Assembly: GCF_004348345.1 (NCBI RefSeq)
Contig: NZ_SMJZ01000005.1
Coordinates: 1-64,000 of the forward strand
Origin: Nonomuraea longispora
GTDB taxonomy: Bacteria > Actinomycetota > Actinomycetes > Streptosporangiales > Streptosporangiaceae
Length of the DNA: 64,000 nucleotides
Direction: 5' to 3'
Shown one piece after another: positions 22,217 to 36,393 of the stretch. The notes below the pieces were generated by a model, which was not told the origin of the DNA, made no database searches, and saw only the letters and a list, made by a program, of their open reading frames with translations. The translations under genes were made by a program, and so were the position numbers. Numbering within the stretch: the stretch's first letter is position 1; each line of letters opens with the position of its first letter.

Positions 22217-22569
22217 CTACTCGGTGTCCTTGGGGTGTTGGGGCGATGCGTAAATTATCCAGACCGTACGAGTGGTGTCATTGATGACGTAGCGCACCCG
22301 CCCGCCGCTCGTGACCTCGAACTCCCACTGCTCCAATTCCTCACCGTTGTGACGATGAGTCGAGAGCTCGCCGCGTAGACGATGCTGACGGTCGTGGCCG
22401 GCGCCCGTACGCGGGTCAGTTCGCAGTGTCTCGAAGCAACGGCGCGTATTGGCCAGAGCGTGACGGCAAAGCTCTTCCAGCCCCGGACGGCCTCGCTGGT
22501 ACCGAATCGAACGTCCCATTCGTCGACCGGAGGCGGGACCGTAACCCGATCTCCGCGTTTCGGGCTCAT
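22217..22569 (-). pseudogene. Frameshifted toxin-like gene
   Basis: Frame one reads MSPKRGDRVTVPPP and WDVRFGTSEAVRGW from ATG 22569, then at about 22477 the family sequence jumps to the next frame (EELCRHALANTRR, EVTSGGRVRYVIND, VWIIYAS) and ends at 22217. One lost G in the TGG-GAA junction would explain this. The rejoined ~117 aa protein resembles a small actinobacterial toxin-like family encoded after Phd-like antitoxins. The start overlaps the antitoxin stop as ATGA. Confidence 0.72.
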
Positions 22570-23036
22570 GCAGTGACCTGCACTGGCCCAAGATCACCGC
22601 TCGTAGGCTTGCGAGCCTGGGCGTAGTGTGCAGGATCCGCCTTGATTCTGGCAGTGGCCCGCCAGCCCACAATGACCTCGTGGGTGGTGGCATCGACATC
22701 CAGCTCGGCGGCGTCGGAGAGCGCCTCGACAAGTTCCAAGGTGAAAGCGCGAAGCTCCTCCGGAGAAAGGTGACGCACCCAAGGGAAGACGTCCGGCATG
22801 GCCAGGACCAGCGCGCGGGCAGTGGGGTCGTGCTTGAGCAGAGCGAGGAACAGCCGGGACGCCGTCGCCAGCGTCCGATCGCGCTCCTCCTCACGGTCCG
22901 CCGCGGTCAGATAGAAATCGACAGCGTCACGATGGGTCACACGCAGACGCCCCAGGCGCGCCGCACGCTCTGCGACGGCCCTGGGATTCCTGGACAGATC
23001 AGAGAACGTGACAGCGTCGGCGTGGCTCGTACTCAC
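22566..23036 (-). CDS. Phd-like antitoxin / hypothetical protein
   Basis: 156 aa from GTG 23036. The N-terminus AVTFSDLSRNPRAVAERA followed by LRVTHRD resembles the Phd/YefM DNA-binding half. The rest (LFLALLKHDPTARALVLAMP, SPEELRAFTLELVEAL) is a helical domain that might bind the toxin. The frame is intact while its coupled partner (22217-22569) is frameshifted, so this is now an orphan antitoxin-like gene. Confidence 0.7.
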   Translation of the reverse strand: MSTSHADAVTFSDLSRNPRAVAERAARLGRLRVTHRDAVDFYLTAADREEERDRTLATASRLFLALLKHDPTARALVLAMPDVFPWVRHLSPEELRAFTLELVEALSDAAELDVDATTHEVIVGWRATARIKADPAHYAQARKPTSGDLGPVQVTA

Positions 23037-23128
23037 TGCCTCAGTGTATGTCAGAAGACAATCTGATGTCACGAGACATCGAGACACGTTGTTGAGCGCT
23101 GCGGCCAACGAACCTGCGTCACGAACGA

Positions 23129-23281
23129 TCACAAGGAGTGATTGTCCTCCGACCGCGGAATCTCCTCGGCCCGTTCCGCGAAATCCGGCTCCTCGTCAGA
23201 GGTCAGGACGATGGCAGGGCGCAACGAGCGCAGTGCGGTGGCCGCCACCGCGGCGTCGATGGCGTACCGGCCCGCTCGCCG
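23129..23281 (-). pseudogene. C-terminal fragment of a VapC-like PIN toxin
   Basis: The minus-strand frame reads RYAIDAAVAATALRS, RPAIVLTSD and then an acidic tail to a stop at 23129. AIDAxxAATA followed by ILTSD is the C-terminal part of VapC-type PIN nucleases, including the last acidic active-site residues. The N-terminal two thirds is missing; the fragment is cut exactly where the orphan msrA end begins. Confidence 0.68.
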
Positions 23282-23288
23282 CCCAGGT

Positions 23289-23393
23289 CTACGCCTCGCC
23301 GGAGGTCAGGCCGACCGGGCAGGTGACGCCCGTGCCGCCGATGGCGCAGTAGCCGTTGGGCACTTTGTACAGGTATTGCTGGTGGTAGCGCTT
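23289..23393 (-). pseudogene. Orphan msrA 3' end, copy A (attachment-site scar)
   Basis: The minus strand encodes the last 34 residues of an MsrA protein: [14 protein letters not shown], then [12 protein letters not shown] and SGEA-stop. No upstream msrA body is attached. The same tail occurs at 25365-25469 and as the true end of msrA at 35626. It is best read as the outer att scar left by site-specific insertion into msrA. Confidence 0.8.
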
Positions 23394-23553
23394 CACTGCA
23401 GGTCATAGATGTGCTGCTCAGCTGGGCTTCGACCGGTACTCAGCACATGACGGCCTATTGGAGATCAAGAGCGGCGAACGTCAGGCCTCAGTGGCCTCGA
23501 ACATTCCTTGCCGTTGTGACGATGAGGCGCGAGATCGCCGCCCGGCTACCACA

Positions 23554-24099
23554 TCAGGCACAACCATTGCGACGAACGTACGGACCGAAAGTCGAGCCTG
23601 TACACGGCAAACGCATTCCTGTCGCGCTCAGAGCATCCACGATGCTTCCAGCAGCCACCTCAGTGAGCTTCCCATCTTGGGTCGCACGGGCAAGAAGCCA
23701 TACGGTGCCGTGCACCTCCAAGCCATGGGCCCTTCCTACAGCCACGGCATGTCGATCATCAGTGATGGCGATCCCACTGCACAGTTCGGCAGCGGAGAAC
23801 ACGCTAGCCTCCCCCAGATCACGCTCCGAAGATCCGATGCGCCGCACCCATTTGGCGAAGCACTTGATCTCTTCTAGAGAGTCGAGTCTTGCCAGCCCAA
23901 GCCAATCCGAATGGAGCACAGTCTCCAGGAGCGGATGCGCCTGCACTCCCGCCCGTATTTCTTCGCGCACTACGTGTGTTGTCAAGCACGTGGTGCCCGC
24001 GAGAACGTCACGCAACACGTCCAAGCGCTCCGCGCGCGCAAAATGGTTCAGACACATGGCGTCGAATACCAGAACGGAGTCTGACTCAGTGTCGCTCAC
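23554..24099 (-). CDS. PIN-like domain protein (putative toxin)
   Basis: 181 aa. VLVFDAMCLNHFARAERLDVL has the first PIN Asp; ERDLGEASVFSAAEL supplies the central acidic residues and GIAITDDRHA the last Asp pair, in the order expected for PIN ribonucleases. ATG 24099 shares ATGA with the stop of the upstream XRE-ImmA gene. Coupling of an XRE/ImmA-type gene to a PIN-like gene is a recognised candidate toxin-antitoxin arrangement. The C-terminal ~25 residues are not typical and may be specific to this group. Confidence 0.75.
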   Translation of the reverse strand: MSDTESDSVLVFDAMCLNHFARAERLDVLRDVLAGTTCLTTHVVREEIRAGVQAHPLLETVLHSDWLGLARLDSLEEIKCFAKWVRRIGSSERDLGEASVFSAAELCSGIAITDDRHAVAVGRAHGLEVHGTVWLLARATQDGKLTEVAAGSIVDALSATGMRLPCTGSTFGPYVRRNGCA

Positions 24100-25193
24100 A
24101 GCTCGAAACCCGCGTCATCACGCCCTGGCAGGTCGGCCGCCACGATCTGGCCACGCATGAGCTCCACCGCCCGGGATTGCGTGATGAGCGACCTCTTACA
24201 GGATTCCATCACCGCATGTGCGAAGCTCGGGGGGACTCGAACCGTCTCCAGATCAGGTTGAGGTGTCCACCCGACCGCTTCCATCAGCTCTGCGCGTGTC
24301 GGGTTTCTTCGGCGCATTTCTTTGGCGACACTTCTATCAATTGCCTCAGCTGCAACGGCTTGCCGCACCGTCAGCGACCAGGACGTCCTGAAACGTGCAG
24401 CCAAGACCACCAAGTCATCGCGCTTCGCTCTCTCTCCCGGAGGAATTACGCAACGAAATGCTGCGGCCGGGAGAAGGAGCTCCGCAGCGAACGCGTCGAT
24501 GATCGCTTCTCTTTCACCACGAGACGCATGGATGCCTATGTCCGACGAGTACTCGTCTCCGACTATCAGATGGCCCAGCTCATGAGCTGCAGTCGCGCGC
24601 CGGCGGCCGGGATCTCCGTGCCTGCTGACAACTGCCACAGCGAGATCGCCCTCCACCAACGAGGCGCCCTCACCTGGCACCTCGACCACCGCGACCAACT
24701 GCCCAAGCCGTTCGCACACACTCATGAGTGAATCGATAGGCTCAATGCCGTGGCTTAGACGCTCTCGCACCCATAGGGCGGCACGGCGGGCACTCGATAC
24801 ATCCTGCACCGCCTCGGCATAGCGATGAATCTCGGGAGGGTTGAGCACTCCCAACTCAACCAGCTGCCGGATGTCAGCCAACCACGTAGAGAGAGCCACC
24901 TCCAGGCGATGGGATTGCCGCGTCGCGTCAGTCACCGTATCGTCGGCCAACTCCATGCGGCGGGAGACGACCGATGGTGGCGGATCTAGAAGATAGCTCA
25001 GAGGCACCTGAAGAACCGTCGACAGCTTGGCGAGTTCGAGCGCGTCGACACGTCGAACACCTCGCTCGATCTTCGCGATCATCGTTCGGTCGAGCTTCAG
25101 AGCCGAGGCCAACTCCTCCTGCGACATGTCGGCTGCCATGCGGCACTCGCGCACCCGCTCACCTATGTCAAGCCACTCGCCGGGGTCCTTCAT
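24096..25193 (-). CDS. XRE-HTH / ImmA-IrrE metallopeptidase fusion (putative antitoxin or protease regulator)
   Basis: 365 aa from ATG 25193. The HTH covers residues ~10-65 (MSQEELASALKLDRTMIAKIERG). A peptidase domain with AAHELGHLIVG (H-E-x2-H at ~204-208) and a downstream FAAELLLP follows; the C-terminal ~120 residues are helical. ImmA/IrrE proteases cleave partner repressors in phages and radiation response. ATG 25193 has GATTAT six bases upstream (leaderless spacing); an in-frame ATG at 25211 is less likely. It is coupled to the PIN gene. Confidence 0.85.
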   Translation of the reverse strand: MKDPGEWLDIGERVRECRMAADMSQEELASALKLDRTMIAKIERGVRRVDALELAKLSTVLQVPLSYLLDPPPSVVSRRMELADDTVTDATRQSHRLEVALSTWLADIRQLVELGVLNPPEIHRYAEAVQDVSSARRAALWVRERLSHGIEPIDSLMSVCERLGQLVAVVEVPGEGASLVEGDLAVAVVSRHGDPGRRRATAAHELGHLIVGDEYSSDIGIHASRGEREAIIDAFAAELLLPAAAFRCVIPPGERAKRDDLVVLAARFRTSWSLTVRQAVAAEAIDRSVAKEMRRRNPTRAELMEAVGWTPQPDLETVRVPPSFAHAVMESCKRSLITQSRAVELMRGQIVAADLPGRDDAGFEL

Positions 25194-25364
25194 GTTGCGA
25201 TAATCGCACATGACCCGCGGGGACGCGAGGCCGGGATGCCAAATCGTGGGTACGTTCAGGCAATGAAGTTACATCCCTTACTGTGCTTACGCCCCGATTC
25301 GGGGGATAGACCTCGCCTCGGACCTGGCGAAACGACCTTCGAAGTCGAGGCAGCCTCGACCGCG

Positions 25365-25469
25365 TTACGCCTCTCCAGAGGCTAGGCCCACCGGACAGGC
25401 CACGCCCGTGCCGCCGATGCCGCAGTACCCATCGGGCACTTTGTACAAATATTGCTGGTGGTAGAACTT
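25365..25469 (-). pseudogene. Orphan msrA 3' end, copy B (attachment-site scar)
   Basis: Encodes [27 protein letters not shown] and SGEA-stop on the minus strand. It lies 35 bp before the serine recombinase gene, the usual place for an att site. The 20 bases at 25390-25409 (ACCGGACAGGCCACGCCCGT) are identical to 35651-35670 inside resident msrA, marking the likely crossover segment of the second insertion. Confidence 0.82.
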
Positions 25470-25503
25470 AACTCTCCGCAACAATCCATGTGAGGAGAGT
25501 TAC

Positions 25504-27014
25504 ATGACCAATGTCCCAGTCGTCTCTTACGCTCGCATATCCGCTGACATCAGGCGGGATGAGCACGGGGTGCAGGACCAGCACCGTCTCAACCGGGAGA
25601 CGGCGGAACGGCACGGGTGGACGGTCGTCCACGAGTACACGGACAACGACAAGTCAGCCGCGAAGGCCGACGTCGTACGCGATGACTTCGAGGCCATACT
25701 ACGGGCTCTGCGGGCCGGCGAACTTCCCAACGGTACGGCGGTGCAAGGCGTCGTGATCGTCGCCGAAGACCGTCTCGCCCGGCGTCCTGGTGACTACGAA
25801 CGCTTCGTTGAAGCGATCACGTCCCAGGACGGCCGCGTGTTCGCCGACGCTCGCGGCACGAAAGACCTGTACAGCGAGGACACCGAGAGCATGGGACTCT
25901 TCGGCGCGGTGATCTCCAAGATGGAGGTCCGCAAGATGCAACGGCGCATGCGCCGCTCGCACCGTACGCGCGCCGAACAAGGACTTCCTGTCGGCGGTAC
26001 GCGCCCCTTCGGCTGGAAGCCTGACCGTCTCACCCTCGACCCCGAGGAGGCACCTCTCGTACGACAGGCGGTGCTGGACCTCATCGCAGGCCGCTCGCTC
26101 CACTCCATCACGAACCAGTGGCGTCGGGAGGGCGCGAAGACCTCGCTGGGCAACGAGTGGACAACCCCCTCGCTCAAGCTCAACGTGCAGAACCCCCGCA
26201 TCTGCGGCTGGCGGGAGATCAACGGCGAACTCGTCCGTGACCCTGCGGGCAACCCCGTGGTCGGCCAGTGGGAGCCGATCGTGACGCCAGAGCAGTGGAT
26301 GGCCGTCAAGAACATCTTCGATGCCCGTAAGGGCCACTACATCCACCGTGACGGGCGCATCGGGCACATCCTCACACCGGACTTCCGCGAGCCGAACTAC
26401 CTGCTCACCGGCTTCCTCCGCTGCGGTCGCGCCAAGCCGGACGGTTCCCTATGCAACACCTCACTGCGCGTCACCCACAGCAAGGACTGCGTCCAACACA
26501 TCTACATCTGCCCAGGCAAGACCGTCGGCGGCTGCGGCGGACTGGGACGGCGCGGTGACATGGTCGATCTCTTCATCTCGGAAGCGGTGCTGGCCAAGCT
26601 GGAGCAGGTCCAACTCGCCGCGTCCGCAACTCCCGCCGAAAGTGGCCGGGCCAGGCGGAGTACGAGGGCGCAAAGACTCGCCTTGAAGAGCTGCGCGTCC
26701 AGTGGACGGCGGGCAACATCACCAACGAGCTCTTCTTCTCAACAGCGCCGGACCTTGAGAAGCGCATCGCCCGCCTTCGCACCGAGGCCCAAGGATTCAC
26801 CGCCGCCGCTCAGCGTCGCCAAGCCCGCTCCGACACCGACATCAACGACATCCGACGGCGCTGGTACCTGCCAGAGAAGGAAGACGGACTCCCCCTCACC
26901 ATCAAGCGCTCCTACATCCACGAAGCCCTCCTAGCCGTGATCATCTATCCCTCCGGCAAGGGACGCAGGAAGTTCAACCCCGACCTGCTTGAGCCGATCT
27001 GGCGAGAAGGCTGA
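25504..27014 (+). pseudogene. Large serine recombinase (integrase), frameshifted
   Basis: Resolvase domain at residues ~5-150 with YARIS (catalytic Ser13) and EDRLARRPGDY. A recombinase domain follows, then a zinc ribbon (CGRAKPDGSLC, YICPGKTVGGCGG). Near 26617-26625 (after VQLAA) the frame changes: the conserved continuation WPGQAEYEGAKTRLEELRVQ is two bases out of phase and runs to the true end LLEPIWREG-stop at 27014. As it stands the 476-residue product loses the coiled-coil/C-terminal part needed for synapsis control. A single base error in the assembly would give an intact ~502 aa enzyme. TGAGGAGAG six bases upstream supports ATG 25504. Confidence 0.85.
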
Positions 27015-27037
27015 GCCCAAGACGTTCAGGACGTCCG

Positions 27038-27075
27038 AGAAGGCTGTCTCCCTTACCTTTGGGCGACAGCCTTCT
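27038..27075 (+). terminator. Terminator after the integrase gene
   Basis: AGAAGGCTGTC and GACAGCCTTCT form a perfect 11-bp stem with a 16-base loop followed by TACTTT, 24 bp after the integrase stop. Confidence 0.75.
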
Positions 27076-27103
27076 TACTTTGCCCTCGAACCACCGGTGA
27101 CAA

Positions 27104-27157
27104 CCGGACGTCTACGGACCCAGCCGGACGTCTACGGTACGCACCGGACGTCTGCGC
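27104..27157. repeat. Three iteron-like direct repeats upstream of rep
   Basis: CCGGACGTCTACGG occurs at 27104 and 27124, with a partial third copy CCGGACGTCTGCG at 27144; spacing is exactly 20 bp, about two helical turns. Each unit contains GACGTC. The repeats sit between the integrase terminator and the rep operon, so Rep or a regulator may bind them. The rest of 27076-27518 holds no supported gene. Confidence 0.6.
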
Positions 27158-27518
27158 TCGGGTCGCCGCCGGAACTCCGACCTGCGTAAACACGTTCTCC
27201 GAGTGGTACAACGTACTCACACCAAGAGCCACCGTCCCTCTACAGCACGACCGCAGCGAACATCTCGGCGAATCACCTCAAGGCGCATAGACGATTCCGG
27301 GCAAGCACATCCACGACCACTGATGACCCGTCGGATTTCCCGGCCCGACGGCAGGTGTCCACACAGAGCGCGCCATTCACCTTCTCGCCGCACTCCATTC
27401 CTGTTCTCTCGCTGCCGGTACCACCGCCAACGGCTGTCTTGAGGCTGCCTTGGCGCTGACGTCTGGTCGTGCTCGTCAGGTACGGCGGTGGCTCCCGCCC
27501 ACGAGCTGAGGAGGCCAC

Positions 27519-27683
27519 CTGAACCAACCGAACGAGCTGTCTGCCCAGGAGTGGGGCAAGCAGCAAGCCGCAAGATCCCCCCGCTGGTCAGAAGAGAAAT
27601 GGCAGCGCATCGCCACCGTGCTCGGCGTATGCGTCGCCCACCAAAGCCCGCCCGACGGCTCCTCCGGGAGGGACGCCGTATGA
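27519..27683 (+). CDS. Small Rep-coupled protein with a CTG start
   Basis: 54 aa, reading LNQPNELSAQEWGKQQAA, RSPRWSEEKWQRIATVLGV to a TGA overlapping the rep ATG (ATGA). Small proteins of this look precede RepSA-type rep genes on actinomycete elements. The only plausible start is CTG 27519, with AGGAGG four bases upstream; no ATG or GTG lies in frame between the preceding stop and the conserved sequence. Probably needed for coupled translation or copy control of Rep (inference). Confidence 0.62.
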   Translation: MNQPNELSAQEWGKQQAARSPRWSEEKWQRIATVLGVCVAHQSPPDGSSGRDAV

Positions 27684-29080
27684 GCGAGGTTCCTCACCTG
27701 TCACCCGAGATGCTGGCCCTGATGCAGCGAGCGGCCATGCCCGACTTCGCCCGCTGGCAACAGATGGTCCACGCCACGGGCGGCTGCGCCCAACCGGTCC
27801 GGCTGCACGGCGAGAGGTACACGCTGGACAGCCGGACGGGTGAAATTCTCGACATGTACCGGACCGCCGACGAGCCGACCGGCTTCCTGCTCACAGCCTG
27901 CGGCAACCGGCGCGCGTCCAGATGCCCGGCCTGCTCGGCGGTCTACAAGGACGACACGTACCACCTGATCGTCACTGGCCTACGCGGCGGCAAGGGCGTT
28001 CCGGAGGAGGTCAGCCAGCACCCCCGAGCGTTCGTTACCTTCACCGCTCCATCCTTCGGTGCGGTCCACGCCCACCGCGAGCAGTCCGGCCGGACGCTCC
28101 CATGTCGTCCGCGCCGGGACCGTCCCGTTTGCGAGCACGGCCGGCCGAAGGGCTGCGGTTCGCGTCACGAGCGCGATGACGTCCAAGTCGGCCAGCCCTT
28201 GTGCGTGGACTGCTACGACTACATCGGGGCCGTCCTGTGGAACGCCCGCGCAGGCATGCTCTGGCGGGAGTTCACCAAGACCGTGCCGAGCGTCCTGGCC
28301 CGCCTGCTCGGCATCACCCGAACGGAGCTGCGCCGGGCGGTCCGCCTCTCGTACGCCAAGGTCGCCGAGTACCAAGCGCGCGGCCTGGTCCACGTCCATG
28401 CCATCGTCAGACTCGACGGACCGGACGGACCCGCCGACCGCCCTCCGGACCACATCACGATCGACCTGCTCGACCGAGCCATACGCCGGACCGCCAGTCA
28501 GGTCGCGGTCCGAATAGAGGACGGACCGCCCTCGCCTGTCCGGTGGGGCGATCAGCTCGACGTACGACCGGTCTACGTCTCAGCCGAGCTGGGCGGACTG
28601 AGCGATCAGCGAGTCGCCGCGTACGTGGCCAAGTACGCCACCAAGGGAGCCGAGTCCGCAGGCACCGTAGACCGTCCGATTCGACATGCTGGACAGATCG
28701 CCGATCTGAAGATCGCCGAGCACGCCCGCCGCATGATCTACACCTGTTTCAGCCTCGCCGAGCTCCAGCCCTACCGAACCCTGCTCCTGCGACAGTGGGC
28801 GCACATGCTCGGCTACCGGGGACACTTCTCCACCAAGTCCCGGCACTACTCGATCAGACTCGGGGACATTCGACAGGCCCGCGCCGACTTCCGTGCCGAG
28901 CAAGCCCGGCGGATCACGGGCACGCCGCCTCTCGATCCGGAGAAGACCGTGACGGTGAGCGAATGGCACTATGCCGGAAGCGGCCACCGCCACGGAGAGG
29001 CTTTCTGGGCCGAGGTAGCCCGGCTACAGATCGCCACCGCTCGTAAGATCGCACGACAACAAGCAGACGAGAACCGATAG
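27680..29080 (+). CDS. Replication initiator (RepSA-like, rolling-circle type)
   Basis: 466 aa. FVTFTAPSFG (residues ~118-127) fits motif 1, LVHVHAIVRLD (His238/His240) the H-x-H metal motif, and YVAKYATKG (Tyr315/Tyr319) the catalytic Tyr-x2-K motif of rolling-circle initiators. Paired Cys (CGNRRASRCPAC, CVDCYDY) suggest a zinc site. RepSA-type proteins excise-replicate actinomycete integrative elements. Start ATG 27680 (GGAGGG eight bases upstream) overlaps the small upstream ORF. The frame is intact, unlike the integrase. Confidence 0.88.
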   Translation: MSEVPHLSPEMLALMQRAAMPDFARWQQMVHATGGCAQPVRLHGERYTLDSRTGEILDMYRTADEPTGFLLTACGNRRASRCPACSAVYKDDTYHLIVTGLRGGKGVPEEVSQHPRAFVTFTAPSFGAVHAHREQSGRTLPCRPRRDRPVCEHGRPKGCGSRHERDDVQVGQPLCVDCYDYIGAVLWNARAGMLWREFTKTVPSVLARLLGITRTELRRAVRLSYAKVAEYQARGLVHVHAIVRLDGPDGPADRPPDHITIDLLDRAIRRTASQVAVRIEDGPPSPVRWGDQLDVRPVYVSAELGGLSDQRVAAYVAKYATKGAESAGTVDRPIRHAGQIADLKIAEHARRMIYTCFSLAELQPYRTLLLRQWAHMLGYRGHFSTKSRHYSIRLGDIRQARADFRAEQARRITGTPPLDPEKTVTVSEWHYAGSGHRHGEAFWAEVARLQIATARKIARQQADENR

Positions 29081-29089
29081 AGCCCTGTG

Positions 29090-29183
29090 CCTCTAGACCG
29101 AGAGAGATCACCTCTAGGTCTAGAGGCATACCTAGAGGCCCATTAGCCGCCTGACCAGGCACCTAGCGTCTAGAGGCTCCTAG
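29090..29183. repeat. Cluster of CTAGAGG/CCTCTAG repeats after rep
   Basis: CCTCTAG at 29090 and 29111, CTAGAGG at 29120, 29132 and 29170, plus CCTAG at 29179. The pair 29111-29126 is a perfect inverted repeat with a two-base centre. Five 7-mers within 90 bp between the 3' ends of two convergent genes could be a bidirectional terminator or a replication-associated site (nick site or second-strand origin). Confidence 0.65.
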
Positions 29184-29656
29184 TCTCGCCGGGCTCCATC
29201 GGGCCAGATCACTCGAACAGGCACCTCCCGCCGTCGCGCCTCGGCCACCACGTCAGCGGTGCCGCCATAGCCTCGGGCCGGCTGCCCGTCCCAGACGGCG
29301 AACAACACATCGGCGTCGTCCAGCATCCGCGCGCTGGCAGTCATGTGCGACTCCGCGGTGGACTCCACAAAGTCCAGCCTGTGAGTTCGGACCGCCCGGC
29401 CCAGCAACTCGTCGTACGCAGCCTGGTACTCGCCCGGCAGCCCGTCCCGATACTCCTTGGCCGGGATCACGGCTTCTAGCACGCCGCCGAGGTCGAGTAC
29501 CGCGCGAGCGAAGATCTGATCGGCCCCGTCCGCCAGGCAGGACAATCCGGCGACTTCAGGACCGTACTCCGCGAGCGCCTGCCGTACAGCCACGTCGATC
29601 AGTACGGCGGTCCCCTCCGGCAAGCCCCGATGGCCGGACACAGCGATGCGAACCAT
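29180..29656 (-). CDS. SLOG/LOG-like nucleotide-binding protein
   Basis: 158 aa Rossmannoid. RIAVSGHRG at residues 3-11, CLADGADQIFA at 40-50, DADVLFAVWDG at ~114-124 and the glycine turn GYGGTADVVAEAR at ~129-141 match the SLOG superfamily (YpsA, LOG, DprA relatives). Members bind or make nucleotide-derived ligands and recur in conflict systems with SLATT membrane effectors. It follows the XRE-TPR gene by 7 bp, in the same orientation. A generic nucleotide-metabolism role cannot be excluded. Confidence 0.75.
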   Translation of the reverse strand: MVRIAVSGHRGLPEGTAVLIDVAVRQALAEYGPEVAGLSCLADGADQIFARAVLDLGGVLEAVIPAKEYRDGLPGEYQAAYDELLGRAVRTHRLDFVESTAESHMTASARMLDDADVLFAVWDGQPARGYGGTADVVAEARRREVPVRVIWPDGARRD

Positions 29657-29663
29657 GATTCCC

Positions 29664-30906
29664 CTAGATCAGAGTGGCGTGAAGACGCTCGTCGAACGAG
29701 CGCAAAGCGCCGGACGACGGCCCGGCATACGATCGCCGGAAGTTCTTGACCCGGTGCAGGACACGCTCTGAGCCATACGTCGTCGCCACCGTAAGCGCAT
29801 TGGACGCCAGATACAGCGCCTCGTCATAGCGCCCCGACATGGCCTCAGCCGTCGCCACCTCCGTCATGAGCACACCCCGCTGCTTCGCACCAGGCTGAAC
29901 CGACGAAAGCGACTCGTTGAACGCGGCAACGGCTTCAACCGGCCGCTTGAGCCGTACCATCACCAGGGCCCGATACCCCGCCGACTTGGCGCGATCGAAC
30001 GGGAACGCCCACGGCCAAGGCGGCGCAACGGCCCGCTCACCAGCCCGTACCGCCGCCTCAGCCACGCTCAACGCCTGAAGCGCCGCCGCCTCGTCCCGCG
30101 CGGTCGCATGGCCGAGCGCTTCGAGACTCGACAACCACGCACGAGCGATTGCCGGTGGCCGCTCACCGATCTCCCGCCGCGCCCGCGCCAAGAGATTGAG
30201 CCCGATCAACGGATCGTCGGCGTCGATCTCGAACGCGGCCAGACTGCCGATCATGTACGCCGCCAGCAGCGCATGGTTGGCCTGTCGCGCGCTGTCGACG
30301 GCGCGCCGGTAGTAGAGACGCGCCGAACCGGTGTCCTGCATGTCGGCATGCACCCAGGCCGCGAAGCCCGCCGCCTCGCTCAGACCGGCCCGGACCTCGT
30401 CAGCATGCGGAGACCGCGACGCGCGGCACGAGAACGCGGCTCGCGAGATCGACCTGCGCTACAGCCGGCCTGGCGAGTTCCCGCGCAGGCGTGACGGACT
30501 CCAACCGACGCTGGGCGCCGGTGATGCTGGTCAGCGTGGCAGCCGTCGTCTCATCCACATCGGGACGCTTGGGCAGGGCCACCCCCGCCAGCGCGGTCAA
30601 CGCCACGGCCTTGCCGAAATCTCTGCGCTTCGTCGGATCGTCATCCCCTCGGGCTCCGAATCGGAGCAAGTGAAGCGGCACCCCGATCTGGATGGATATC
30701 TCCCGAACCTGGTCCACAGTGAGCGGCTGACGACCACGCAACACCTTGGACACCCAACTCTGGGAGTAGCCGACCGCCTCAGCGAGCTGGCCCTGCGTCC
30801 AACCGTGCGACCGCCGCACCTCTTCGAGGATGGTTGGTAGATCGCACTCGGCGAGAGCGGCGGCCACGACTGGCCCGGACCAGAACTGCGGCGGTATCTG
30901 GGTCAC
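29664..30906 (-). pseudogene. XRE-family regulator with TPR domain, frameshifted
   Basis: The N-terminal part from ATG 30906 carries the HTH (WTQGQLAEAVGYSQSWVSKVLRG) and runs in frame to VDLASRVLV, then stops at about 30400. One base out of frame the protein resumes as SRSPHADEVRAGLSEAAGFAAW and continues through TPR-like helices (RLYYRRAVDSARQANHALL) to 29664. The shift is near 30428. The rejoined protein would be ~413 aa, the normal size of these actinobacterial regulators. Co-directional with the SLOG gene. Confidence 0.82.
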
Positions 30907-31021
30907 AACGCTAGGTTAAGCCGCCGACCTTGGCCGTACCGATATTCGTGACGGGAATACCCCTACCACCAGCAGGACTAGGCCGTTCACCCTGCTGTTT
31001 CATAACAGCAACGCTCAGTAC

Positions 31022-31312
31022 ATGAACGAACTACCGCCTCACCCCTTGGCCGCCGCACAACAACTGGCCGCCGCCCTTGCGGACGAGGGAATCACTGCCG
31101 ACGTCCATCACGACTACGGCACGCCCATGGTGTCGGTCTGGGTCGGCCTGATCGTTTGGTGCGCGGACGGCACGTACTGGTGGCGCACCGGCTGGAACCC
31201 ACGCAGACACCGACCGATCTACGCAGGCCACCCCTTCACCCAGCCGGTCCGCGCCGCCCACCGAGTCGCCATTCGCTACACGCAACTACGTCGCATCCGC
31301 TCTCGTCACTGA
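31022..31312 (+). CDS. Hypothetical protein of actinomycete elements, 96 aa
   Basis: MNELPPHPLAAAQQLAAALA, then VSVWVGLIVWCADGTYWWRTG and a basic C-terminus. Trp-rich small proteins of this type are usual beside XRE-TPR regulators on actinomycete elements; their function is not known. Divergent from the XRE gene across 115 bp. No membrane segment or signal peptide. Confidence 0.65.
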   Translation: MNELPPHPLAAAQQLAAALADEGITADVHHDYGTPMVSVWVGLIVWCADGTYWWRTGWNPRRHRPIYAGHPFTQPVRAAHRVAIRYTQLRRIRSRH

Positions 31313-31328
31313 TCGCCGGAGCACAGCC

Positions 31329-31553
31329 GTGCCCCTGACCGTGCAGCAACTGCTCAGGAGATTCCCTGGCTGGCAGATAATCGACATGTCCGGAGGCTGG
31401 GTCGCCATGCGAATCAACTTCATGCCGATAGCCAGCGGTCTCTCCAACGTGCGTTGCGGAGAAAGCTTGGAGGAACTGGCCGGCAATCTACACGCCGAGA
31501 CCAGGCTCCAGAAGGCACGGGCATCGGCAGTAGGAACCTCGATGGCAAGCTGA
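31329..31553 (+). CDS. Hypothetical protein, 74 aa
   Basis: From GTG 31329: QQLLRRFPGWQIIDMSGGWVAM, then CGESLEELAGNLHAETRLQ. The pattern (RFPGW, then a C-terminal helix with LxELAxxLxAE) is typical of small proteins that accompany the gene at 31022. 16 bp separate the two, so they are probably co-transcribed. Confidence 0.62.
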   Translation: MPLTVQQLLRRFPGWQIIDMSGGWVAMRINFMPIASGLSNVRCGESLEELAGNLHAETRLQKARASAVGTSMAS

Positions 31554-32062
31554 CCAGAAGCGACGATCTCCATGTCCGGCTGGGGATACGCTGCGGCAGC
31601 CCGACCTTCCGCTTTTCAGGCGGAGCAACTACCCTGCTCGGCTGAGCGGGGCCGTGGTCAGGCGGATGTTGACAGCAGCGCGTATGCGCCAGCGTATGGG
31701 GCCGTTGCTGTCAGTGCTGCTGTCACCTCATCTAGGATCACCCGGCGCCAGGACCGACGAAGGAGGGGTCCAGCTTCGGCGGCGAGAGCCAAAACCTCGC
31801 CAGGCGCACCCGTCCTGGTTGGCAGCGCTGCACCAGGTAACACCTCTTTCTGCCTCTGCGATGAAGCAAGAACAGGTACAGCGCACATCTGATGCGCTTG
31901 ATAATGACGAGCTGGCGAGAAGGGCAGCCAATCAAGATGCAACTTGGACGGGTTTCGCTGCATTCTTTGACCGACGGCGAGGTGCACGTATCAGATAGGC
32001 CGATGACAGAGTCACCGCCTGTGCGTGAACGCCAATGGGGAGACTAATTCAAACCATCAGCA
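31554..32062. other. Intergenic region with a degenerate minus-strand coding remnant
   Basis: No plus-strand gene is supported. On the minus strand 31658-31987 is open; its end reads LLRRSWRRVILDEVTAALTA, resembling the remnant at 33408-33592 (LLRRVLPSVTMVGVTAVPAE). The DNA around CGACGAAGGAGGGG at 31749-31771 is repeated at 33499-33521. Confidence 0.45.
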
Positions 32063-33079
32063 GTGACCTATCCTGAGAACTGGCTATTAGATGTCAGCCT
32101 AAATCTCATGCTAAAGACTCATCTATGGGCATTTACGCAAGTAGCCCTTGGCGTGATCGTGACCTACGTTCTTATTCGCACAATAGTTGATCCTGTTCGC
32201 ACAACGCACCACACACAAGTAGAATCACCCGAGAATAGTGAGGATCCACCGATGGCGACGCCTGAGTATACAGGACCCGGCGAGCAGCTATTAGCAATCA
32301 ATCGGGAGATTCTTCTGAAAGAACTTGAGTTGCAGCGCACCAAACGGCAGCGATTGGCGTTTCGGGTTGGCCTTATACTCGCACCCACCATGTTCTTTAC
32401 AATCTATATCGCCACAGCGGCAACATGGGGGAAATTTGATATGAAGCTGATCAACGTCATTGCGATTCCGATAGATATTTTGCTCATTGTCGGCGCGATA
32501 ACCTACTACGCTAACCGCAGAAGCGGGCGCATCGGAGCCCTCAAATTAGTGGGAGACGTCGAGCTAGACCTAGCCGTTCTACGTGAGCGTAAAAGATTTA
32601 TGGCACTTAACCTCGCAATGACTATTTCGCAGCGCCGATCCATCTACAAGGATGACACGAGCCGAGATATCGAAATCTTTAGACGAGACAGTCGGCGTTA
32701 TAGAAGAATCAACAACGCGTTTCAATCTCTAGTCATTATTGGTTCCCTGTTCGCTGCTTCTATGAGTAGCCTCGCGGTTGAACAGGAGAATTTCCGATGG
32801 GCCACAGTAGTCGCGACATTTCTAGTTGGCATATCGGCAGGCTTCACTGGATACTTCAAGTTCAAAGACAGAGGATTCTATCTTCAGCAAACAGCCGATG
32901 CGTTAGAGCATGAATGGAGCATCTACGATCTAAGCATAGGTAGATATAAACGCCTTAAACCTGAGGATGCGCTCGCCGATTTTGTTGAGGAAGCCGAAAG
33001 GATCAAAGCCGAGCAAAGACAGAGAGAACAGAATCTGGACCAACCGTCGGACGGCCGAGATTCCACAAGCCCGCAATAG
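32063..33079 (+). CDS. SLATT/DUF4231-type membrane protein (putative pore-forming effector)
   Basis: 338 aa with an N-terminal hydrophobic segment (residues ~17-40) and two membrane-helix pairs (~100-155 and ~223-270). The second pair, followed by FKFKDRGFYLQQTADALEHEW, matches the SLATT/DUF4231 domain: two helices then a helical tail with a conserved Glu/Tyr pattern. SLATT proteins are predicted pores paired with nucleotide-sensing SLOG or nucleotidyltransferase genes. The gene is strikingly AT-rich and contains at least four TTA Leu codons, rare in high-GC actinomycetes. GTG 32063 lacks a ribosome site; ATG 32252 (MATPEYTG) has GAGG eight bases upstream and may be the true start. Confidence 0.75.
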   Translation: MTYPENWLLDVSLNLMLKTHLWAFTQVALGVIVTYVLIRTIVDPVRTTHHTQVESPENSEDPPMATPEYTGPGEQLLAINREILLKELELQRTKRQRLAFRVGLILAPTMFFTIYIATAATWGKFDMKLINVIAIPIDILLIVGAITYYANRRSGRIGALKLVGDVELDLAVLRERKRFMALNLAMTISQRRSIYKDDTSRDIEIFRRDSRRYRRINNAFQSLVIIGSLFAASMSSLAVEQENFRWATVVATFLVGISAGFTGYFKFKDRGFYLQQTADALEHEWSIYDLSIGRYKRLKPEDALADFVEEAERIKAEQRQREQNLDQPSDGRDSTSPQ

Positions 33080-33602
33080 CCTGATGTATTCTTCGTCTCC
33101 CGCCTCGGCCACCGACCCCGCTCTCACCCTCCGCAGGAACGCCCACGTCACCACAAGCAGGCCGCCACAGCCGCCGGTATCTTCGCCCGGGCGGTGACCT
33201 CCTGTTAGCGAGATCGCGAAATTGTCCTGACATCCACAGAGGCTTCTGAACCGGAAACGCTAGTTCGGAGGCCTCGTGATTGCAGAGCCGACGAGGGTTT
33301 TGTTTACAAGTGAGAACGTAATAGTCAACAGCTGCCCACGAGGGTCCTGACAGGTTGGTCATGGGCCTACACCGAACGATCCCAGTCCACCCACACCTGT
33401 GATTATCCAAGGTCGTTGCTAGCAACTGCGTTTGCAAGATCGGCCAGCGCCGATACTTCCGCCGGTACAGCTGTCACCCCAACCATGGTCACCGATGGCA
33501 GGACCCGACGAAGGAGGGGCCTGGCGGCGATCGCCCCGACCACGAACGGCGCGCACCGAAGTACGCGATCGTCACGACGGACCGCTTCAACGTTGATTGA
33601 AG
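33080..33602. other. Non-coding gap with a second copy of the degenerate remnant
   Basis: No complete gene is supported. The minus strand from 33592 to ~33408 encodes VRRDDRVLRCAPFVVGAIAA then RPLLRRVLPSVTMVGVT and a stop, without a start codon. This is the tail of an unrecognised protein, related to the remnant at 31658-31987. The two flank the SLATT gene. Confidence 0.45.
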
Positions 33603-35402
33603 TCAGTCAGAGGAGCGGGAGTCGATATATAGGATCTGGCTGGCAAGCTTCCAGATTTGATTCTTATCCTCTGGGCCGTCATATCGACTGGCCGCTGTTA
33701 GGTCGGGATATTGACGCCGAATTTCGGCGACGACGACGGACGTGGGGAACCAGGCGGGTAGGTCCTCGACGTGGACGTCGATTCCGAGCAATCGGCTCCA
33801 ATCATTACGGTCACGTTGTTCGGATTGTTGACTGATGCCGAGCAGTATCGATTCGAGAAGCTCTGGTCGTCCGCTGAGACTCATGGCGATGCGTTCCCGA
33901 ACCTCGTGGGCGGTGCTAATCGACGCCGTCCACCCCAGCAAGCGGCGCACGTGAAGCCTATTCACTACCCAAATCGTCTGGTCTGCCCAGTCGGCCTCGC
34001 GCAGCAGTCGAGTCGCGTGCTCTCTGGCCTTCTCTTCGTGGTCCGGTCGCTGCGTCTCCTTGGCAACGAACATCAGTTCACGGACAAGGCTGACCGCAAT
34101 GGCTAGCGGCCGTTGCGCCGCTGCGTCGTCGATGAGAACCGCCAAGGTGGCATCATCCGCGTTGCGGGCGACGTGTGCTGCCAGTCCGGTTGTTGCTGTC
34201 AGCCCTACGGGCAGATGCATGAGCAACTCGGGAAGGTCAAGAGCGAAGCGTGCTGCTCCTATTAGGTTCGTGTACAAGTTGGCATCGTAGGGCAGCCCGC
34301 CCACGCGGGCCCATGGACGGGCCCGCTCCAAGAGCTCTCGATGTTCACGTGTCAGTCGTTGTGCGTTGGTCTCGACTGGCTCAGACGGCGGCGGCGTTGG
34401 CTTGGGAGGCTGCTCGGTCGGCTGGCCTTGCCAGGCTGCGCTTAACGCCGTAGAGGCGCGTAGCAACTCCGTGAGCACTTCGGCTAGCACTTCGTCGTCA
34501 TCCTCGGGTGGACGTCCCGGCCACCGAGCGGACGCCTCCAGAACCATCCTTGCGGCGGCTTCCACCCAGTTACACCAAGGGCCGACGTGCGGCAATGCTG
34601 CGCGGACCGCGTAGAGCTCGGCTACAAGCGTCGCGACAAAGGGACGTAGGGCCTCCACGACCTGCTGGAGGGTTACGTCCAGTCTCTCCTGGAATGGCAT
34701 CGTTTCCACTAGCGACGGCTCAACCGGGGGTAGTAGTTCCCCAGTCGCAGCGTCCCAGGCACGAGGCAGACTCCGCTGCACTTGTGTACGCATCGCGTGC
34801 CATGCGAACGCCGCGTTGAAAGGCAACTGGCGCTGCTGGCGAGCTACCTCGGCTAGGTGCCCGGCCGCACGGGCCGCTGCAATGACACTGGATGCCGCCT
34901 CAACGGCGACGCCATAATCCCTTGCATCGAAGGACGCATTGATGATCTGCTGAGCTTCGTCGTCGGTTAGCGGCCACCCCTTCTGCACCTTGAAGTGTTC
35001 TTCTATCTGCGCGCGCTTCCATTCATGAAGCAGCTCTACCGGATAGTGTTCAGGTGTCCTGTCAATCTCAAGGGCGTGTTCCAAACACATTGGGATGAGG
35101 TTGGATTCGCTGCGGTTCTTGTCCTCGCTCATCTCCGGATCCCAGCGTGGACCACCCTCGCTACGTGCGCAGATGTGCGACACATGGCTGTTGAGAACGA
35201 TCTCGCCGGTGTCATTGTTCATCTTGTAGAGGGGCTTGCCGCAACCGGGCATGCCGCAGCGGAAGGCCGTCCCGTAGAGCTGACGAATGGTTGCCAGGAC
35301 CGGCTTCTTATGCACGATGGGCTTACGCTTCTTCGGCTCACTCTCCGTCACTTGGACATTATCCTCCGCTTCCTGCGCCTGTGGCACATCCGGCCCGACC
35401 AT
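33603..35402 (-). CDS. HNH-motif protein with long helical C-terminal domain (putative defence nuclease)
   Basis: 599 aa. An N-terminal HNH-type zinc nuclease module carries CGMPGC (Cys49/Cys54), NSHVSHICARSEGG (His73/His76) and NLIPMCLEHALEID (Asn101, Cys106, His109, Asp114). From ~150 onward the protein is helical and Arg/Glu-rich with a Pro-rich linker (PPKPTPPPSEP, ~330-342), perhaps a sensor or protein-interaction part. Similar HNH N-termini occur in defence-island proteins. It is the last cargo gene before msrA and faces the SLATT gene (convergent). Target unknown. Confidence 0.75.
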   Translation of the reverse strand: MVGPDVPQAQEAEDNVQVTESEPKKRKPIVHKKPVLATIRQLYGTAFRCGMPGCGKPLYKMNNDTGEIVLNSHVSHICARSEGGPRWDPEMSEDKNRSESNLIPMCLEHALEIDRTPEHYPVELLHEWKRAQIEEHFKVQKGWPLTDDEAQQIINASFDARDYGVAVEAASSVIAAARAAGHLAEVARQQRQLPFNAAFAWHAMRTQVQRSLPRAWDAATGELLPPVEPSLVETMPFQERLDVTLQQVVEALRPFVATLVAELYAVRAALPHVGPWCNWVEAAARMVLEASARWPGRPPEDDDEVLAEVLTELLRASTALSAAWQGQPTEQPPKPTPPPSEPVETNAQRLTREHRELLERARPWARVGGLPYDANLYTNLIGAARFALDLPELLMHLPVGLTATTGLAAHVARNADDATLAVLIDDAAAQRPLAIAVSLVRELMFVAKETQRPDHEEKAREHATRLLREADWADQTIWVVNRLHVRRLLGWTASISTAHEVRERIAMSLSGRPELLESILLGISQQSEQRDRNDWSRLLGIDVHVEDLPAWFPTSVVVAEIRRQYPDLTAASRYDGPEDKNQIWKLASQILYIDSRSSD

Positions 35403-35625
35403 CTTCTTGTTGGTCGTCTCAGTGGTTCAGCGCGTGGGCGGTGCTGGCCGCGACCGGCCGGAGAGCCGCAGCGCGGCCAGCAGACCGCCCGGACGCGCCG
35501 CCGGTCGCCGCAGGCGGACGGCCTTGACTCTGTAGTGAAGGTTGTCGCCGAAGACGGCTCTGGCCCATGATCGACACCGGGCGTGCCGGGCGACCATGGG
35601 CCAGAATCTAGCTATCTTCGCAGGT

Positions 35626-36288
35626 CTACGCCTCGCCGGACGTCAGGCCGACCGGACAGGCCACGCCCGTCCCGCCGATCCCGCAGTAGCCGTTTTTGTT
35701 GCGGTGGAGATACTGCTGGTGATATTCCTCGGCGAAGTAGAAAGGTCCGGCAGGGGCGAGTTCGGTCGTGATGTCGCCGTAGCCAGCCTGCTTGAGCACC
35801 TTCTGGTACGCGTCCCGCGACGTCTCGGCGGCCTTCCGCTGCTCCGGCGAGTGGTAGTAGATGGCCGAACGGTACTGCGTGCCGACGTCGTTGCCCTGGC
35901 GCATGCCCTGCGTCGGATCGTGGGCCTCCCAGAAGGTCTTCAGGAGCTCCTCGTACGACACCTTCGCCGGGTCGAAGACGACCCTGACGACTTCGGCGTG
36001 TCCGGTGAGGCCGCTGCAGACCTCGTCGTACGTCGGGTTGGGGGTGTGACCGCCCTGGTAGCCGGCGGCCGTCGTGACGACGCCCGGTGTCTGCCAGAAG
36101 ATGCGCTCGGCGCCCCAGAAGCAGCCGAGGCCGAAGTCGGCGACCTCCGACCCCGGCGCGTACGGCGGGGCGAGCGAGGCGTCGAGGACGGCGTGGCGGT
36201 CCGGCACGGGCATGGGCTCCGCGCGGCCCGGCAGGGCGTCCTCCGGTCGGACCATCGATGTCTTGTTGCCGCCGAACAGCCAGCCCAT
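35626..36288 (-). CDS. msrA: Peptide methionine sulfoxide reductase A
   Basis: 220 aa. GCFWGAER carries the catalytic Cys56; recycling Cys residues are in GYCGIGGTG and ACPVG near the C-terminus. It reduces Met-S-sulfoxide in proteins. ATG 36288 is chosen because GGAGG ends six bases upstream; a longer in-frame extension is not supported. Its last ~15 codons lie beyond the 20-base segment shared with 25390-25409, so the present 3' end was probably supplied by the integrated element and still encodes a complete protein. Confidence 0.95.
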
Positions 36289-36393
36289 AACGCACCTCCA
36301 GAGGTCTTCCCTCAGCCTACATACCCCCCAACATTTAAGGGCTTCTGAATAATTCCCTTCAGGGAACCTGTTTGTGTTTAAGGGTTGTAATGC

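Follow-up and report, generated by a model that had tools for sequence, protein, structure and literature searches.

In staphylococci, the staphylococcal cassette chromosome elements (SCC and SCCmec) use serine recombinases (ccr) to enter rlmH (orfX), the 3' end of which is restored, and accumulate in composite islands that include recombinase-less units. Integrons rely on a tyrosine integrase, IntI, and on attC sites to build arrays of small, shuffled, toxin-antitoxin-rich cassettes at one site. Here we describe a locus with features of both, comprising the msrA gene of Nonomuraea longispora and the DNA downstream of it, within a stretch of 64,000 nucleotides (contig NZ_SMJZ01000005.1, positions 1 to 64,000; hereafter the window). 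The window holds three copies of the msrA 3' end, one in the resident gene and two as orphans (tails A and B); an element with a large serine integrase and RepSA lies between B and the resident gene, and an integrase-less cassette between A and B. We consider it likely that these ends result from repeated site-specific insertion into msrA by elements carrying large serine integrases, the cassettes most likely being moved in trans. A search of the open-access literature, with subscription papers and preprints outside its scope, found no description of msrA as a serine integrase site.

The likeness to SCC lies in the serine recombinase, the restored 3' end of a conserved gene and the units that lack a recombinase; the differences are that the target is msrA rather than rlmH, that there is a single integrase rather than ccr, that the exchanged coding segment is longer and that the cargo consists mostly of toxin-antitoxin genes. 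With integrons the locus shares small, shuffled, toxin-antitoxin-rich cassettes at one site, but it relies on a serine integrase that is usually missing from the array itself, and it has its site within the gene of a host enzyme. Accretion involving cis-mobilizable elements (CIMEs) is already known: according to excerpts of PMC5704250, these are integrase-less, are kept between att sites and stand in tandem with integrative and conjugative or integrative and mobilizable elements (ICEs, IMEs) at one gene end, and serine IMEs are described as having very short repeats and disrupting genes. The msrA units likewise include some that lack an integrase, lie between att sites and line up with integrase elements at the end of a single gene (the A-to-B unit has att sites at both flanks, and a Pfam scan of its proteins found no integrase), but they are single-module cassettes of about 1 kb, fixed in size and present in many genomes, and, unlike the serine IMEs of those excerpts, their att segment of about 31 codons swaps the end of an enzyme. 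Serine recombinases are also known from 19 of 144 actinomycete integrative and conjugative elements (AICEs) in excerpts of PMC3218068, which leave open in general whether two AICEs can occupy one site and form tandem arrays, yet describe tandem AICEs in tRNA genes. Of the AICE hallmarks (RepSA or RepAM, an integrase and an FtsK/TraB-like translocase), the 10.26-kb element of the window has, like pSAM2, RepSA and an integrase in an actinomycete, but the Pfam scan found no FtsK/TraB-type protein among 8 element proteins (three short ORFs lay outside it), and msrA is not named as a target in the excerpted text (PMC3218068).

A repeat search of the window returned one family with three 108-nt copies, at 23290-23397, 25366-25473 and 35627-35734, the second and third being 84% and 74% identical to the first. 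Since their nucleotide-profile E-values range from 1e-23 to 3e-27, these copies are not a chance resemblance. Each copy lies on the minus strand, follows the msrA frame and closes in a stop codon; the orphan ends that an earlier note on this DNA had placed at 23289-23393 and 25365-25469, in the orientation of the resident gene, were thus found as claimed, as were the motifs KVPNGYC in A, KVPDGYC in B and RNKNGYC in the resident gene. Within its own genome (9.16 Mb in 465 contigs) this msrA has a single full-length match, and A and B are the only fragments, which rules out a second full-length msrA, the source of fragments that the earlier note had named as its refutation. Comparison at the level of sequence confirmed that A and B mark site-specific insertions downstream of resident msrA. 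Among solved structures, the best relative is 6agv.

The same arrangement recurs across the genus. Queries with msrA identified orphan tails in 31 of 54 genus genomes (tallied by hand from the matches); in 26 of these they lie within 25 kb of msrA, on the same contig and strand and on its downstream side, in four (G006, G007, G038 and G047) on other contigs, and in G020 far away. The orphan tail of G002 was found by nucleotide profile only. The largest array has five orphan tails (L086). Past the outermost orphan, the sequence is that found directly behind msrA in unoccupied genomes in the pairs L063/L121, L075/L119, L082/L122 and L082/L113; several arrays gave no such flank match to unoccupied genomes. 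A survey for elements flanked by msrA ends mapped 59 units between adjacent tails. This integrase is encoded in 8 of them, which measure 6.7-10.3 kb; the other 51 lack it and measure 0.4-8.7 kb (median 1.57 kb). Of the integrase units, seven directly adjoin resident msrA, and the eighth starts at a contig end. Flank synteny and the filled/empty pairs described below support the view that site-specific insertion has struck the 3' end of msrA repeatedly and that the gene was restored every time; what the earlier note took for two isolated insertions is instead a genus-wide hotspot.

Several comparisons bear on which msrA end is native. An HRN-type resident tail is present in 9/9 integrase genomes versus 4/39 others (Fisher p 4e-7, relatedness not corrected). 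The arm on the integrase side and the resident tail, although 10 kb apart, match at 10-15 of 30 symmetric positions in 8/8 integrase units, against 4-8 of 30 for the same arm and the orphan tail. Between the occupied L075 (G033) and the unoccupied L119, the msrA body is 95% identical, the orphan tail 89% and the resident tail 67%, while the flanks behind orphan and resident tails score 65% and 4%; the L075 orphan and the native gene of L119 also have an unusual early stop in common. For body, resident tail, orphan tail, orphan flank and resident flank, the corresponding percentages are 84, 62, 79, 89 and 5 for L063 versus L121, 78, 69, 85, 59 and 1 for L063 versus L117, 87, 79, 84, 82 and 14 for L082 versus L113, and 79, 72, 76, 66 and 1 for L082 versus L122. 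The pair L077 and L122 does not discriminate (72 and 72 for the tails, 8 and 13 for the flanks), and no orphan tail is present in L097. Because the HRN-integrase association, the arm-resident palindrome and the match of orphan tails to native genes point the same way, the polarity proposed earlier, with the KVPxGYC side derived from attP and RNKNGYC chromosomal, is ruled out and has to be reversed: as judged from these comparisons, the RNKNGYC end is the one donated by the element, and the KVPxGYC ends are earlier C-termini that were displaced. L066 and L097 have mosaic resident tails, with an element-type head and a native end; these are likely traces of an element that once occupied the site and look like scars of homologous recombination between tails, a possible route of element loss. 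Read by eye, 48/48 resident tails compared keep GYC and CP, the cysteines of which we take to be the recycling cysteines of MsrA.

Searching with a nucleotide profile built on the tail produced 108 matches in 41 stretches, a few of them weak. The tails begin at a single point, TAYCACCAGCA (codons Y-H-Q-Q), and continue for about 31 codons to the stop; upstream of this point lies mostly GAGGAYTAY in resident genes and a foreign arm in orphans, for example of type TTGCGGAGAGTTAAGTTCTAC beside integrases and TTGCCTGAAGCGAAGCGCTAC in integrase-less cassettes. TTGC occurs at one fixed offset in 8/8 integrase-unit arms and 21/51 other arms, compared with 6 times at 19 other offsets combined among the latter, and TTGC and AA stand at equal distances from the core in both arm classes. 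From the symmetry of arm and resident tail around CA, we infer that crossover takes place at this dinucleotide within the YHQQ codons, at 35721-35720, 25460-25459 and 23384-23383. In the window, TTGTTGCGG and CCGCAACAA are equidistant from the central CA. In silico, by the count of 10-15 symmetric positions against 4-8, the att half-sites form inverted repeats around a short crossover.

We therefore propose that the att site of an element consists of an arm of about 30 nt, the core TACCACCAGCA and a copy of about 31 codons of the msrA 3' end, an anatomy that comparison of the tails shows to recur. Recombination of a presumably circular intermediate within the YHQQ codons would fuse the body of the host gene with the incoming tail; the joined gene would again encode a full enzyme, with its C-terminal cysteines supplied by the element, and the old tail would be pushed downstream, behind the element's arm. 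Repeated rounds would build up an array; every orphan tail in it would be an earlier C-terminus that was displaced, and the element that came in last would probably adjoin msrA. In the window, the RepSA/integrase element (about 25460-35720) stands next to msrA, ahead of the HTH-IrrE/PIN cassette (about 23384-25459). The likeliest movers of the many integrase-less toxin-antitoxin cassettes with related arms are the integrases of this clade, acting in trans.

The integrases themselves bear out the earlier suggestion that serine integrases target msrA ends. Orphan msrA ends lie directly upstream of the integrase gene in 8/8 genus relatives at at least 87% identity, and, among 51 named relatives, 24 have an msrA tail in that position (a weak one in the case of L162, L173 and L175), 20 of these together with a full msrA within the examined stretch. 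At at least 73% identity the figure is 14/15, the exception, L183, being a fragment of 52 residues. Among near-full-length relatives at at least 87% identity, the frame is open for 512-521 codons in 6/7 and for 666 in the seventh. Integrases at msrA ends come from Nonomuraea, Planobispora, Streptosporangium, Herbidospora, Microbispora and Microtetraspora and, at 56-66% identity, from Streptomyces, Streptantibioticus, Actinacidiphila, Actinomadura, Actinoplanes and Dactylosporangium. Other targets are found among sister integrases, namely an aldo/keto reductase gene (tested for L151 and L157; L146-L149 and others by motif) or a metE-type, cobalamin-independent methionine synthase gene (tested for L156), here too at TTCTAC-type coding motifs. 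A tree of 50 rows requires three target changes, two of them forced by starred branches, which suggests target switching inside one integrase clade. The closest plasmid-filed integrase is 68.5% identical (a Nonomuraea gerenzanensis record); no close integrase was found in phages, 255/255 phage records being below 60%.

The A-to-B unit has no integrase and is one of many cassettes of this kind; its HTH-IrrE/PIN gene pair is also found between msrA ends in L067, L071 and L092. Such cassettes recur at sizes of 916-938, 1012-1018 and 1560-1565 bp, and the ParE cassette of about 1015 bp stands at rank 1, 2 or 3 depending on the genome. A toxin-antitoxin-type gene is present in 36/51 non-integrase units, a count that leaves out L083.2, L084.3 and L086.2 (cluster 0 only, a mix of ORFs antisense to tails and the ParE cassette, and no ParE match) and that rests on rough ORF calls from codon GC only and, for some clusters, on Pfam matches below the curated cut-off (DUF3368, Phd/YefM-DUF6247). 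Representative proteins include ParE, PIN, PIN_3, Gp49 and Fic, with Phd/YefM and DUF6247 under the cut-off, and further families comprise GNAT, HNH, kinase, AAA-LuxR and unknown ones. With one mismatch allowed, the cassette-arm pattern occurs in 36/341 family genomes and 8/68 genera (the reversed control once), and the ParE cassette protein in 74/341 genomes and 18/68 genera. Among 30 ParE loci, a tail lies 542-547 bp past the start of the gene in 17 and at 523 bp in one; three have an upstream tail only and two a weak upstream match only. ParE DNA is closer than the msrA body in 55/66 pairs from 12 genomes, and the two do not correlate (Spearman -0.11), a pattern that, with pairs not independent, fits horizontal movement.

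A number of observations weigh against our reading. Counts are not independent, as the genomes are related. HRN ends occur without an integrase in G006, G011, G047 and G051, in the last of which the DNA for about 1 kb past msrA is similar to the element end seen in an integrase genome (L125 versus L091). In the window, the integrase copy is frameshifted and arm A lacks TTGC; elsewhere, 7/30 ParE loci have no msrA end nearby. A contiguous att site was not found in viral_contigs (0 matches), and in the genus the 8 genomes that match with 2 mismatches do so in resident msrA genes only; no excision product or circle was seen. Arm-tail symmetry is raised in integrase units only, not in cassettes. 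Identity was greater for own than for next tails in 5/9 unit types (ParE, HigB, c26c15c4, c27c28 and integrase, two of these five being single pairs), or only 4/8 of the non-integrase types, and not in PIN_925, IrrE_PIN, HTH17_PIN3 and c13c16.

Decay offers another account of the cassettes, in which integrase-less units lost int and rep after insertion and are fossils rather than trans-mobile. Such accretion is established for other elements, in excerpts of PMC5704250; G035 has an otherwise similar unit with only a 120-residue integrase fragment, and the sequence after the stop of several orphans resembles an element end. We nevertheless find this account unlikely: fixed-size cassettes recur at differing ranks, the ParE type extends across its 18 genera with the arm beginning close behind the toxin gene, and ParE identity does not follow that of the host msrA. 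The same end points, found repeatedly, are hardly to be expected of random decay, although a single decay followed by joint transfer would still allow them.

More doubtful still is a recombinase outside this integrase clade as the mover of the cassettes. Consensus cassette arms are unlike Nonomuraea integrase arms, and arrays are present in G030, G039, G044 and G045, whose whole genomes give no PF07508 match. The equal spacing of TTGC and AA in both arm classes speaks against it, as do the cassette-like arms beside integrases of Streptosporangium carneum and Microbispora amethystogenes, and a missing PF07508 recombinase could also mean loss of a helper element. An origin by simple tandem duplication, or by homologous recombination between msrA ends, with no site-specific recombination involved, is very improbable, for although the tails are alike enough to recombine and the mosaics of L066 and L097 look like such events, the tails start at one base position with foreign arms upstream and their flanks behave as clean insertions. 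Equally hard to sustain is crossover in the 20 bases shared by B and the resident gene (25390-25409 = 35651-35670) with the KVPxGYC side from attP, as the earlier note had it: that identity is exact, but it is not distinctive, since A and the resident gene share a different 20-mer (A and B, an 18-mer), the polarity tests contradict it and the inferred crossover lies in the YHQQ codons.

On the reading we prefer, repeated insertion by serine integrases, the locus is probably an SCC-like and integron-like accretion system at msrA that swaps the C-terminal cysteine segment, with cassettes moved in trans. It may even be, as we suggest tentatively, a serine-integrase counterpart of the integron, in which integrase-less toxin-antitoxin cassettes of about 1 kb are trans-mobilised, the msrA 3' end is the shared site, each cassette brings along a working C-terminal piece of the host's repair enzyme and each capture re-engineers that enzyme. 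If true, cassette arrays would have a second chemistry, based on serine integrases, and would be built at a new kind of location, within the gene of a housekeeping enzyme; the gathering of many toxin-antitoxin modules at one chromosomal spot in rare actinomycetes would be explained, and the order of displaced tails would allow one insertion after another to be read off. Both the att sites and their integrases could be put to use as integration tools in Nonomuraea, Microbispora and Streptosporangium, genera that include antibiotic producers.

Table 1. Features of the msrA locus in the window (positions of the 64,000-nucleotide stretch).
Feature	Position	Strand	Remarks
Resident msrA	35626..36294	-	body native; last ~31 codons (35626-35724) probably element-donated, HRNKNGYC type
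Resident core TATCACCAGCA	35714..35724	-	putative crossover dinucleotide CA at 35721-35720
Integrase/RepSA element, 10.26 kb	25460..35720		between two putative crossover points (B to resident)
HNH effector-like cargo protein, next to msrA	33603..35402	-	PADLOC: CBASS-type effector and PDC-M68A profiles; no Pfam match
HTH regulator and TPR ORFs (168 + 229 aa)	29664..30906	-	single 413-aa ORF in L063, L071
RepSA, pSAM2-type replication initiator	27488..29080	+	Pfam RepSA 1.7e-154
Large serine integrase, frameshifted near 26640	25504..26934	+	Pfam Resolvase, Recombinase
Integrase-type arm beside tail B, TTGTTGCGGAGAGTTAAGTTCTAC	25461..25490	-	arm comparison
Orphan tail B, displaced msrA end KVPDGYC	25365..25463	-	core 25453-25463
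Integrase-less cassette, 2.08 kb	23384..25459		flanked by tails A and B
HTH + IrrE-like protease domain protein	24096..25211	-	Pfam HTH_3, Peptidase_M78
PIN-like DUF3368 protein	23554..24099	-	slightly below Pfam cut-off
Arm beside tail A, cassette-like GAAGCGCTAC, without consensus TTGC	23385..23414	-	arm comparison
Orphan tail A, displaced msrA end KVPNGYC	23289..23387	-	core 23377-23387

The integrase of the window matches PF00239 and PF07508 above cut-off, and the frameshift leaves its zinc-ribbon/C-terminal region not intact. Between int and repSA, at 27101-27140, lie two neighbouring 20-nt repeats (85%), possibly iterons. Directly after the stop of several orphans (L073 2923, L084 12459, L089 2035 and window tail A), there is sequence (TAGACCTGCGGAG or similar) like that at the end of integrase elements nearest to msrA, a hint that older integrase elements once stood there. 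Just past tail A, 22255-23132 holds a DUF6247-like gene and a 104-aa ORF and, because similar DNA is seen again behind the msrA arrays of other genomes, may be a further cassette that has lost its own tail. A 39-nt direct repeat (87%), at 22336-22374 and 23503-23541, links this 104-aa ORF with the non-coding end of the A-to-B unit.

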